Part shown: positions 8,482 to 48,219 of the stretch, in pieces
How the letters are laid out: the number at the start of each line of letters is the position of its first letter
Numbering within the stretch: position 1 is the first letter of the stretch
NCBI GenBank assembly: GCA_028818775.1
Contig: JAPPNE010000038.1
Span: forward strand, 1 to 56,763
DNA length: 56,763 nucleotides
Direction of reading: 5' to 3'
From: Deltaproteobacteria bacterium
GTDB taxonomy: Bacteria; Desulfobacterota; Binatia; UBA9968; JAJDTQ01
The notes under the pieces: generated by a model
What the model was told of the DNA's origin: nothing
The model's database searches: none
What the model saw: the letters and a program-made list of their open reading frames with translations, nothing else
Translations under genes and position numbers: made by a program

Positions 8482-9216
8482 CTATTCGTAGTGTACCTCC
8501 ACCAGGAACAGGCCGCGGGCCGGGGCGGTGGCGCCGGCGACCTTGCGGTCACGGCTGCGGATCAGCGCGGGCAGATCGCCCGCCGCCCGCTCGCCCAGTC
8601 CCACCTCCACGAGCGTGCCGACGATGTTGCGCACCATGTGGCGCAGATAGCCCGTGGCCTCGATGCGGTAGACCCAGTGGTCTTCCCATGGGAACAGCGC
8701 GTTGTGGTAGACGCGCCGCACCGGCGTGGCCGCGCCGCAACCGGCGGCCCGGAACGACGAGAAGTCGTGCTCTCCTTCCAACGCCGGGAGCGCGGCGCGC
8801 ATGGCGTCCACGTCCAACGGCCGCATCACGTGCCACGCGTAGCGGTCGTGGAACACCGACCGCCAAGGGTGGTTCCAAAGCCGGTACTCGTAGACGCGCC
8901 GGCGCGCGTCCCGGCGGGCTTCGAAGGACGGAGACTCCTCCTCCACCGCCTTGACCGTGATATCATCCGGGGTAAGCGCGTTGAGGCTCCGCCGGAGCCG
9001 CCCCAGGTCCCGGTCGTCGGGACAGGAGAAGTTCGCCACCTGGCCCAGCGCGTGCACGCCGGCGTCGGTGCGCCCGGAACCGTGGATGCGCACGGGCTCC
9101 TTGAGCAGCACCGCCAGCGCCTCCTCCAGCGCGCCCTGGACCGTCGGCCCCTCGGGCTGGAGTTGCCATCCCCGGTAGCGGGTGCCGTCGTATTCGAGGG
9201 TCAGTCGAACGTTCAT
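8482..9216 (-). CDS. truA: tRNA pseudouridine synthase A
   Basis: A 244-residue TruA, which makes pseudouridine at positions 38-40 of the tRNA anticodon stem-loop. The catalytic aspartate is D51 in GSGRTDAGVHALGQV. The N-terminus MNVRLTLEYDGTRYRGWQLQ matches the family, which fixes the start at 9216. A frame open to 9333 only adds translated repeat sequence (WIPASAGMTD) and is rejected. Length is normal (about 245-270). The neighbour order asd-truA is common in deltaproteobacterial-type genomes. Repeats flank the gene on both sides. Confidence 0.95.
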   Translation of the reverse strand: MNVRLTLEYDGTRYRGWQLQPEGPTVQGALEEALAVLLKEPVRIHGSGRTDAGVHALGQVANFSCPDDRDLGRLRRSLNALTPDDITVKAVEEESPSFEARRDARRRVYEYRLWNHPWRSVFHDRYAWHVMRPLDVDAMRAALPALEGEHDFSSFRAAGCGAATPVRRVYHNALFPWEDHWVYRIEATGYLRHMVRNIVGTLVEVGLGERAAGDLPALIRSRDRKVAGATAPARGLFLVEVHYE

Positions 9217-44518: not shown

Positions 44519-45301
44519 CTATTCCATCAAGCCGTTGTCCCGCAGGAACTCGATGACGAAAGCGTCGAATCCCGCGGGGTCCTCGATGCAGCACGCGTGA
44601 CCCGTTCCGGGGAGCACCTTGTGAACCGCCCCCGGCGTCAGCGCCGCGGTCTTCCGGCCCCCTTCCAAGGACATGTCGTGCTCGCCGTTGATGACCAAGG
44701 TGGGCACCCTCATCTCCCCGAGGCGCGGCGTCATGTCGGTGCCGCCGCGGGCACGGAATATCTGCGCGATGGACGTGCCCGAAAGCCACGGGTTGCGCTC
44801 CAGGAAGAGGTCCAGCAGGTACTTGCCGAGCCGGGTGCTCTCGAAACCCGGCGCCACCAGTTCCCTGATGTGCTTCCCGTGGTAGGTGGTCACGTCGTCC
44901 GTGTAGCCCTCGATCCGGTCGCCGATGCGCCCGCCCCCGCCGCTGCTTCCGCCTACCAGGATCACCGCCCGGAACGTCTCCGGGTGGTCGAGACCCAGCA
45001 GCAAGGCGATGCCCGACCCCACGCTGACGCCGCCGATGACGGCTTCCGTGACGCCCTCCGCCCGGCAGACGGCCAGCACGTCGCCCGCCATGTCCCCCAG
45101 CGAGAACGGCGTCTCCGGCTTGTCCGACCGGCCGTAACCCCGGATGTCCAGCGAGATCACCCGGAACCAGGTGGAGAAGTGCGCCACCTGGTACATCAGC
45201 AGATTGTGGTCGAACGGGTTGGCGTGCACCCATATGAAGGGCAGACCCTCCCCGGAAACCTCGTAGTAGATGCGGACGCCATTGGAATCCGTGTACGGCA
45301 T
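44519..45301 (-). CDS. Alpha/beta hydrolase
   Basis: A 260-residue single-domain alpha/beta hydrolase with a complete catalytic triad: nucleophile serine in GGVSVGSGIALL (about 93-104), aspartate in INGEHDMSLEGG (about 205-216) and histidine in GTGHACCIEDP (about 232-242). The oxyanion region is WVHANPFDH and the strand DIRGYGRSDKP is typical. The substrate is unknown; an esterase, an epoxide hydrolase or a C-C hydrolase are possible. ATG at 45301 has GAGGTG upstream. It converges on the large hydrolase and diverges from the S4 protein gene. Frames extending upstream to 45532 have no ribosome site. Confidence 0.85.
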   Translation of the reverse strand: MPYTDSNGVRIYYEVSGEGLPFIWVHANPFDHNLLMYQVAHFSTWFRVISLDIRGYGRSDKPETPFSLGDMAGDVLAVCRAEGVTEAVIGGVSVGSGIALLLGLDHPETFRAVILVGGSSGGGGRIGDRIEGYTDDVTTYHGKHIRELVAPGFESTRLGKYLLDLFLERNPWLSGTSIAQIFRARGGTDMTPRLGEMRVPTLVINGEHDMSLEGGRKTAALTPGAVHKVLPGTGHACCIEDPAGFDAFVIEFLRDNGLME

Positions 45302-45411
45302 GGAACACCTCGAACGACAGTGTAGAGCGGTTTCGAACGTTGCGTCGTTCCAACCACGAAACCGGACACATGGCAAACAGAGAGGCGAACCGAACCGATC
45401 CATCAAGATCA

Positions 45412-45420
45412 TGCTATAAT
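45412..45420 (+). promoter_or_regulatory. Extended -10 promoter for the S4 protein/RNA ligase pair
   Basis: TGCTATAAT is a consensus extended -10. The last base lies 8 bases before the ATG at 45428, so transcription is predicted to start at the ATG itself (leaderless message). No Shine-Dalgarno is present. Confidence 0.6.
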
Positions 45421-45427
45421 TGGTCCC

Positions 45428-45817
45428 ATGACGACTGCCGAAAGCGTCCGGCTCGACAAGTGGCTGTGGGCGGCGCGGTTCTTCAAGACACGCTCGCTCG
45501 CGGCCGAGGCGGCCCAGGGCGGCAAGGTCCACGTCCGCGGCGACCGCGCCAAGCCGGCCCGGCCGGTTCGCATCGGCGACCGGCTGGAGATCCGGCGCGG
45601 TCCTTGGGAATGGGTGGTCACGGTCAAGGGTCTGTCAACGAAGCGTGGCCCCGCCAGCGAGGCCGCGCTGCTATACGAAGAAACCGAGGAAAGCGCGCGC
45701 AAGCGCGACGCCGCGCGTGCCGAGGCCCGATCCCACGCCGCCCCTCTCCGCGAACGCGGCGGACGGCCCACCAAGAAGGACCGCCGGGACCGCGCGCGCT
45801 TCGCGCGTGAGGATTGA
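45428..45817 (+). CDS. hslR: Hsp15-like S4-domain RNA-binding protein
   Basis: A 129-residue Hsp15 homologue. The S4 domain spans about 8-70 (VRLDKWLWAARFFKTRSLAA at the start) and the family hallmark ASEAALLYEETEES (about 76-89) is followed by a basic tail (PTKKDRRDRARFARED). In E. coli Hsp15 binds free 50S subunits that carry nascent peptidyl-tRNA and takes part in their rescue. The start codon is fixed by the closeness of the S4 domain and the promoter. An RNA ligase gene follows 17 bp downstream. Confidence 0.92.
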   Translation: MTTAESVRLDKWLWAARFFKTRSLAAEAAQGGKVHVRGDRAKPARPVRIGDRLEIRRGPWEWVVTVKGLSTKRGPASEAALLYEETEESARKRDAARAEARSHAAPLRERGGRPTKKDRRDRARFARED

Positions 45818-45834
45818 CGCGGGGGTAATGAGCA

Positions 45835-46890
45835 ATGGCTTCTTTCGAGGTAAAGGTTTACCGGATTCAGGTGGAGGAGCATCCCAATGCGGATGCCCTG
45901 GAGTTGGCGCGCGTGGGCGGTTACGTGAGCCTTATCAAGAAGGACTCTTTTTCGACGGGCGACCTTGCGGTCTACATTCCCGAGGCGTCCATCGTCCCCG
46001 ACGACGTGATTCAGGAACTCGGGCTTGAGGGCCGCCTTGCCGGCAAGGCGAAGAACCGCGTGAAGGCCATCAAGCTGCGTGGGGTCCTGTCTCAGGGACT
46101 GATCTACCCCGTCGCGGGGAACCGCCTGAGCGGGGCCGAAGTGGCGGAGGGCGACGACGTGATGGAGGCCCTCGGCGTGGAGAAGTGGGAGCCGCCGATC
46201 CCGGTCCACTTGTCCGGCAAGGTGCAGAATTCCCACGGGGCGACGCTTCACTACGACATCGAGGACATCAAGAAGCACCCCGATGTCTTCAAGGCCGGAG
46301 AGGACGTGGCCGTCACCGAGAAGATTCACGGGACTTGGTGCTGTCTCGGCTGGAACCGGGAACGCGGCGCCATCGTGTCGTCGAAGGGGTTGTCCTCCCA
46401 AGGATTGTCCTTCAAGGTCGACGACCCGGACAACGCGGACAACCTGTACGTGCGGATGTGGAAGACGCATGGCGACCTGGTGAAACAGCGGGCGGAGCAA
46501 TGCGGCCAGTCCGTGTACGTCCTGGGCGAGATTTTCGGGCGCTCGGTTCAGGACCTCCGGTACGGCGAGAAGGCGCAGGCTTTCGCCGTATTCGACGTGT
46601 ACGTCGGAGACCCCGGCTCCGGCAGGTACTTGAACTGGTCCGAGATCCTGGAGTTTGCCGGCGCCGACTTCCCCATGGTCCCGGCCCTGTATCGCGGTCC
46701 GTTCGATGCCGGTCTTCTTCCCGACTGGACCACCGGCAAGACCCTGTGGGGTGAAGGAGTGGACCAGATTCGAGAGGGCGTCGTCATCCGGGACTGCGCC
46801 GAAGGGTCGGACATGGAGATCGGACGCCGAGTCCTCAAGAGCGTGTCCGAGGGTTATCTGCTTCGGAAGGGGGGAACGGAGTTCAACTGA
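45835..46890 (+). CDS. Rnl5-type (DraRnl-like) RNA ligase
   Basis: A 351-residue ATP-dependent RNA ligase resembling Deinococcus radiodurans RNA ligase DraRnl (Rnl5), which seals 3'-OH RNA to 5'-phosphate in nicked duplexes. A N-terminal OB-like domain covers about 1-125. The nucleotidyltransferase has motif I EKIHGTWC with lysine K163, motif III AVFDVYVG (about 251-258), motif IV EGVVIRD (314-320) and motif V VLKSVSEGYLL (about 333-343). All key residues appear intact. Length agrees with DraRnl. The gene lies 17 bp after hslR on the same strand, has a poor ribosome site, and is followed by an AT-rich palindrome. Confidence 0.88.
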   Translation: MASFEVKVYRIQVEEHPNADALELARVGGYVSLIKKDSFSTGDLAVYIPEASIVPDDVIQELGLEGRLAGKAKNRVKAIKLRGVLSQGLIYPVAGNRLSGAEVAEGDDVMEALGVEKWEPPIPVHLSGKVQNSHGATLHYDIEDIKKHPDVFKAGEDVAVTEKIHGTWCCLGWNRERGAIVSSKGLSSQGLSFKVDDPDNADNLYVRMWKTHGDLVKQRAEQCGQSVYVLGEIFGRSVQDLRYGEKAQAFAVFDVYVGDPGSGRYLNWSEILEFAGADFPMVPALYRGPFDAGLLPDWTTGKTLWGEGVDQIREGVVIRDCAEGSDMEIGRRVLKSVSEGYLLRKGGTEFN

Positions 46891-46910
46891 GGCTGGTGAC
46901 GTGCATCATA

Positions 46911-46945
46911 CATGCGGGTAAAAATACGGCTATTTTACCCACATG
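46911..46945. repeat. AT-rich inverted repeat between the RNA ligase and cinA genes
   Basis: The arm CATGCGGGTAAAAATA (46911-46926) and TATTTTACCCACATG (46931-46945) are inverted copies with one mismatch and a one-base slip around a CGGC centre. The two flanking genes converge on it. It lacks a terminal T-run. It is markedly more AT-rich than the surroundings. A bidirectional terminator or a protein-binding site are possible. Confidence 0.6.
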
Positions 46946-46971
46946 CATGAGCGGACGCTTGCGGGACCGCC

Positions 46972-48219
46972 CTACATCCCCTCCAGCAGCACCGTGCGGA
47001 TCATGGAGATGGCGTTGAGGCTCATGCGGGTGCGGTCGGGGCCGCCGCGGCCGCCGAGGTTGTAGGTGCGGGTGTTGAACCGGGTGCCGTCGGTGATGGA
47101 GATGTAGGTCTGGCCCCTGGCGAGGTTTACGGCGGTGTCGCCGGGGTTCTCCACGGCGTGCAGCGCCAGGCCGAAGTCGCTGCCGGCCTGCTCGCGGACG
47201 GTCCAGGCCAGTTCCTCGGTGAGCTGCTCGGGCTGCTCCAGCAGCGCCTCGGCCTCTCCGGGCCGCCGCGAAAGCGCCAGCAGGCGGCGGGTGCCGCGCT
47301 CGCCGGGCGCCACCATGCCTTCCACGAAGTGTTCCTTGCTGGCCCGCTGCAGGCGGTCGGCCACGAGGCCGGCGGTCATGTCCTCGAAGACGGCCACGCT
47401 CCGGTCGTGCTCCCGGAGCAACCGGCCCACCGCGTCCTCCATGGTCTCGTCGTCCACGGCGAAGACATGGGTGGTGAGAAGCTCGCGCACCTGCGCCTCC
47501 ACCGGCGCAATCAGCTCCATGGCCTCCTCGCGGCTGGACGCCTTGGCGGTGATGCGCACGTCCACCTGGCCCGGGTGGGCCAGCACTCCCACGGTGGGGT
47601 TGCTGGAGTTGGCGATGAGGTCGCCGATCTCATGGTCCACCGAGCTTTCACCCATGTCGGTGACCTTGAGCACCCGGTAGGTGATGGTCTCCGACAGGTT
47701 CCACCTGCGCCGGGCGTAGGGGGTCAACTCGTTCTCGAACAGCCACTTCATCTCGTGCGGCACCCCAGGCAGCGCGAAGATGACGCCCTTCTCGTGCTCG
47801 ACGATGAACGACGGCGCGGTGCCGTTGGGATTCTCCACCGGGATGGCGCCTTCGGGGATGTCCGCCTGCCGCTCGTTGTTGGGAGTCATGATCATGCCGC
47901 GGCGGCGGAAGCGCGTGTCGATCTGGTCCAGCAGGCCCGGGTCGCGCACCAGCTCGCGGCCGCACACCTCGGCGATGATCTCCCGGGTGAGGTCGTCCTG
48001 GGTCGGGCCGAGGCCGCCGCTGGTGATGACGAAGTCCGCCCGGTCCAGCGCCCGACCGATGACGTCTTTCATGCGCCCCGGGTTGTCGCCCACGATGGTC
48101 TTGAAGAAGAGGTTGACCCCGAGGTCCGACAAGCGCTGGGCCATCCACGAGGAGTTGGTATCCACGATCTGACCCAGCAGCAGCTCCGATCCGATGGCGA
48201 CGATTTCAGCGTTGGGCAC
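46972..48219 (-). CDS. CinA-like protein with altered C-terminal amidase motif
   Basis: A 415-residue CinA homologue. The N-terminal MoCF-like (COG1058) domain is normal, with SELLLGQIVDTNSSW (about 11-25), SGGLGPTQDDLTREI (about 67-81) and LPGVPHEMKWLFENEL. In active enzymes this part hydrolyses ADP-ribose-like nucleotides. The C-terminal nicotinamide-nucleotide amidase domain should carry ESCTGG with the catalytic serine; here it reads EDMTAG (residues 279-284), so the nucleophile is absent and the amidase is probably inactive. The symbol cinA would be used by homology for the first domain. It is monocistronic; its end is 27 bp from the palindrome. Confidence 0.88.
   Translation of the reverse strand: MPNAEIVAIGSELLLGQIVDTNSSWMAQRLSDLGVNLFFKTIVGDNPGRMKDVIGRALDRADFVITSGGLGPTQDDLTREIIAEVCGRELVRDPGLLDQIDTRFRRRGMIMTPNNERQADIPEGAIPVENPNGTAPSFIVEHEKGVIFALPGVPHEMKWLFENELTPYARRRWNLSETITYRVLKVTDMGESSVDHEIGDLIANSSNPTVGVLAHPGQVDVRITAKASSREEAMELIAPVEAQVRELLTTHVFAVDDETMEDAVGRLLREHDRSVAVFEDMTAGLVADRLQRASKEHFVEGMVAPGERGTRRLLALSRRPGEAEALLEQPEQLTEELAWTVREQAGSDFGLALHAVENPGDTAVNLARGQTYISITDGTRFNTRTYNLGGRGGPDRTRMSLNAISMIRTVLLEGM

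Follow-up and report, generated by a model that had tools for sequence, protein, structure and literature searches.

The close spacing of an Hsp15-like gene and an RNA ligase gene in a Candidatus Binatia chromosome raises the question of whether the two products work together or are neighbors by history alone. In the stretch of DNA analyzed here (the window: Deltaproteobacteria bacterium GCA_028818775.1, contig JAPPNE010000038.1, positions 1-56,763, to which all window coordinates refer), hslR encodes an Hsp15-like S4-domain protein of 129 aa at 45428..45817, and a DraRnl/Rnl5-type ATP-dependent RNA ligase of 351 aa follows at 45835..46890. As first described from the sequence, both open reading frames lie on the + strand, 17 bp apart; the gap between them (45818..45834, + strand) holds GGGGG at 45821-45825, a weak ribosome-binding site. 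An alpha/beta hydrolase gene (44519..45310, - strand), recognized by a domain match, and cinA (46972..48219, - strand), recognized by domain and family matches, form the conserved left and right flanks of the hslR locus in comparisons with other members of the genus, the named ones of which are Candidatus Binatia MAGs. The sequence-only reading of this arrangement proposed a joint device that repairs cleaved rRNA or tRNA. We favor, with a probability of roughly 0.8, the view that an accessory ligase gene was inserted downstream of a native hslR and probably relies on the leaderless hslR promoter, in which case no cooperation between the two proteins is required.

The assignment of the first gene as Hsp15-like holds up, as its product carries an S4 domain (PF01479, 42.2 bits) and aligns with the NCBIfam Hsp15 model NF007673 over residues 3-127 of 129 (118.8 bits, E 1.7e-34), giving the Hsp15 layout of an S4 domain and a C-terminal extension matched at nearly full length. 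The score falls under the equivalog cut-off of the model (148), and the name is therefore limited to Hsp15-like. E. coli Hsp15 binds 50S subunits carrying peptidyl-tRNA (PMC8012679), and the product of hslR, a gene native to this locus and probably a housekeeping one, would by analogy act on obstructed 50S subunits.

The extended -10 element TG-c-TATAAT (45412..45420, + strand) lies 7 nt before the hslR ATG, with the predicted start at the ATG itself; no good -35 accompanies it, and a consensus scan gives no two-hexamer promoter. The element had been noted in the window, and its core proves to be conserved: TGCTATA stands 7-9 nt before the hslR ATG both in the window and in three congeners that lack the ligase (G002, G003 and G004). 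That this core is kept although the remaining DNA upstream of hslR in these congeners is only 30-40% identical to that of the window argues that it is there by more than chance; the 7-mer is common to all four upstream sequences, which in 5000 shuffles never shared more than 4 letters. The ligase-free congeners thus retain the locus together with its promoter core, and both therefore belong to hslR alone, independently of the ligase. The conserved extended -10 element would serve hslR as its own promoter; its distance from the ATG is one expected of leaderless genes, and the mRNA is probably leaderless. A genome-wide preference for leaderless promoters was considered and rejected because neither motif scan showed clear enrichment: across the whole genome, TGnTATA before an ATG was not enriched over the control (13 vs 11), and among 239 predicted genes TAnnnT was not clearly enriched at 6-8 nt upstream of the first ATG.

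The second gene encodes a clear member of the DraRnl/Rnl5 family. Its product matches TIGR02306 (RNA_lig_DRB0094) over residues 10-344 with 227 bits against a cut-off of 151.15, and Pfam recognizes the RNA_ligase domain and the PHA02142 OB-fold, so that an N-terminal OB module (PF21189, residues 12-93, 45868..46113) precedes the nucleotidyltransferase domain (PF09414, residues 157-336, 46303..46842), both on the + strand. The catalytic motifs had been described as intact, and indeed the acceptor lysine K163 and the later E314 and K335 are invariant in a 10-member alignment that includes DraRnl of D. radiodurans. The ligase is under purifying selection, with dN/dS of 0.09-0.23 in all pairs of carrier genomes, including those with G001. 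Enzymes of the Rnl5 family are ATP-dependent, proceed through a lysine-AMP intermediate and seal 3'-OH/5'-PO4 RNA nicks; by homology, we infer the same chemistry and a role in RNA repair for the window ligase.

Within the genus, the ligase scores over the TIGR02306 cut-off in four of nine genomes (the window genome, G007, G005 and G001), while none of 26 other genomes sampled from the order has a match over the cut-off, and a phylum-wide sample of 297 genomes holds two besides that of the window. Weak TIGR02306 matches in open frames mostly of about 800 residues were left out of this count; given their length and a match confined to the N-terminus, they probably represent the OB domain found in the beta subunit of phenylalanyl-tRNA synthetase. 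In G003 and G004 the gene order is hydrolase, hslR, cinA and RND pump, and in G002 it is hslR, cinA and RND up to the contig end, each without the ligase. In the four carriers the ligase lies between hslR, or a remnant of it, and cinA. Because the flanks of the ligase adjoin each other in the ligase-free congeners, we regard the ligase as a probable insertion.

The two genes also part company in both directions. G001 carries an intact ligase (89% identical to that of the window) behind an hslR stub of 23 codons, and a protein search found no other hslR in this genome, which is 99% complete, although MAG assemblies can miss genes; a scan for S4 domains in G001 gave matches only in frames of 208, 242, 301 and 393 aa. 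The promoter region and the first hslR codons still precede the G001 ligase while the rest of hslR is gone, a remnant more in keeping with use of the hslR promoter than of its product. In G005, an internal deletion has removed the middle of the hslR copy next to the ligase and disrupted its reading frame; a second, intact hslR follows some 2 kb beyond the ligase, separated from it by a SulP transporter gene and a repeated fragment of the hydrolase gene. Conversely, hslR persists without a ligase in G002, G003 and G004. The genus thus includes, for each gene, genomes in which it is missing or broken but the other is retained. In each of the four carriers, the ligase stands behind hslR or its remnant. 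The favored account has an accessory DraRnl/Rnl5 ligase, of a kind common in phages and also found on plasmids, entering the hslR-cinA interval within the genus, where it would probably be expressed by read-through from the hslR promoter, a plausible route.

The history of the segment is less simple than a single recent insertion, and it is here that the strongest competing account arises. The cinA tree, which represents a single gene beside the locus that could itself have recombined, pairs the window with the ligase-free G004 and the carrier G007 with G005. In the hslR tree, by contrast, the partner of the window is G007 (99/97); a grouping of the window with G004 is rejected (p-AU 0.0025), as is one of G007 with the intact G005 copy (p-AU 0.00007). 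This conflict implies two lineages of hslR, one of which goes with the ligase, and it could reflect either transfer of a block by recombination or duplication of hslR followed by loss of different copies. At least in the window and G007, hslR and the ligase may have moved or been retained as one block, and both histories give physical linkage without any need for joint function. It is accordingly conceivable, though we consider it somewhat less probable than not, that the ligase is ancestral in the genus, having lain between tandem hslR copies, with reciprocal loss of hslR and repeat-mediated deletion of the ligase leaving the adjacency as a relic rather than the result of a recent insertion. 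The order in G005 (hslR remnant, ligase, SulP, hydrolase fragment, intact hslR) is what such an arrangement would look like, the two hslR lineages agree with it, and the ligase dS values between carriers are comparable in magnitude to those of cinA, in a comparison from which cinA pairs of G002 or G003 with other genomes were left out as strand artefacts. G007 moreover shares the sequence of G005 behind the ligase and contains a stretch of 17 nt similar to the end of the second hslR, which is suggestive of a remnant. Against this, the 17-nt match is significant for only one of the three hslR tails tested (1 of 2000 shuffles), no trace of a second hslR was found in the window or in G001, and the ligase needs three changes on the cinA tree, as it does under the other histories.

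Read-through from hslR, which belongs to the favored insertion account, would be dispensable if the ligase were transcribed separately from hslR, from a promoter of its own within the last part of that gene or close to it. The relatives lend this some credit, as 79 bp in G007, 76 bp in G005 and 69 bp in G001 separate the two genes, vs 17 bp in the window, and all three have a GGGAGG ribosome site before the ligase, of which the window keeps only GGGGG. However, only the window has a gap as short as 17 bp, which leaves room for such a promoter only inside hslR, and a consensus scan of 45200-47050 finds no promoter-like site, so that we judge a separate ligase promoter unlikely.

Outside the genus, the association of the two genes disappears in the loci sampled. 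The sequence-only reading had held that the pair would be chance adjacency if Rnl5 homologues in related genomes showed no link to hslR, and among 29 Rnl5 loci outside the genus (10 chromosomal, 10 plasmid, 6 phage and 3 IMG/VR), none has hslR beside the ligase within flanks of about 1-6 kb when queried with the window hslR alone. An S4-domain scan of the ten ligase-bearing chromosomal genomes was added to this single-query neighborhood search, and it places the nearest S4 domain either at a distance of 148 kb or more or on a different contig. Among the papers found in a literature search, none functionally joins Hsp15 and an RNA ligase. The functional operon first proposed, in which the Hsp15-like protein would deliver 50S subunits or tRNA with cleaved RNA and the ligase would seal the nick, draws on the shared strand, the short gap and the single promoter, on both proteins being intact and adjacent in the window and G007, and on the hslR lineage common to these two against the cinA tree; it is nonetheless rejected on the pattern of losses, with hslR broken or absent in two of four carriers and kept by the ligase-free congeners, and on the neighborhood survey. 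A version confined to this genus, in which one hslR lineage and the ligase were kept or moved as a single transcription unit and the ligase repairs RNA on the ribosomes or tRNAs handled by the Hsp15-like protein, is equally improbable in our estimation.

The right side of the inserted segment is marked by an inverted repeat between the ligase and cinA (46916..46942), a pattern that is present once in the whole genome. The repeat also occurs in locus L034 just before position 8767 and in L033 just before 9285, and at the corresponding spot in G002 and G003 paired changes keep the arms complementary (GTGGGTAAAACAGC/GCTGTTTTACCCAC and GTGGGTAGAATAGC/GCTATTCTACCCAC). Immediately after the repeat, G007 and G001 carry an AAA_14/DUF4143 gene (a candidate defence gene, PADLOC PDC-S01), which seems to be missing in the window, with only its first codons left. 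Across congeners the hslR-cinA interval (L032, L033 and L034) holds the ligase, a SulP transporter and the AAA_14/DUF4143 ATPase in different genomes. The interval thus acts as a small accessory site where genes come and go.

The case carries a lesson for the reading of bacterial gene order, as tight same-strand spacing in one genome suggests an operon where a few close relatives reveal an accessory gene behind a housekeeping promoter. What is new here is limited to the chromosomal Candidatus Binatia members of the known and scattered DraRnl/Rnl5 family and to the documented accessory site.

Comparison with characterized systems places both proteins in familiar company. The window Hsp15-like protein resembles E. 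coli Hsp15 (HslR) in its S4 domain and C-terminal extension, with an alignment that spans nearly the full length, but it lies under the curated equivalog cut-off. The ligase has the OB and nucleotidyltransferase domains and the same catalytic residues as DraRnl (DRB0094, of the Rnl5 clade) of Deinococcus radiodurans, to which it is 33-34% identical over its full length. DraRnl, however, is encoded by a megaplasmid, where radR/radS and a Dps gene, but no hslR, lie close to it, whereas the window ligase is chromosomal and stands behind hslR. DRB0094 has been described as an RNA ligase induced by irradiation, with a possible role in RNA repair (PMC1274311). A second annotated RNA ligase family protein lies about 4 kb from DraRnl on D. 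radiodurans plasmid pMP1 (L110, 11235-11867), adjoining a TIGR02452 protein and an AAA ATPase, and a Miltoncostaea oceani plasmid (L115, 2920-5157) has a gene for a 745-residue RNA ligase family protein, apparently a longer fusion, that shares 53% identity with residues 4-171 of the ligase in the window. Among solved structures, the nearest in sequence, chiefly across the OB module, is the RNA ligase of Naegleria gruberi (PDB 5cot and related entries), which is of eukaryotic protist origin. The family as a whole is represented in 248 phage and 33 plasmid records and is sporadic on chromosomes. Phage members of the DRB0094 family (phrog_968, for example gp167 of Caulobacter phage CcrColossus) are homologous to the window ligase over its full length, with the best phage matches at 36-40% identity, but reside in phage genomes among other neighbors, and one study reports an enrichment of ligases of this family in phages that carry tRNA-linked theta ribozymes (PMC10879173).
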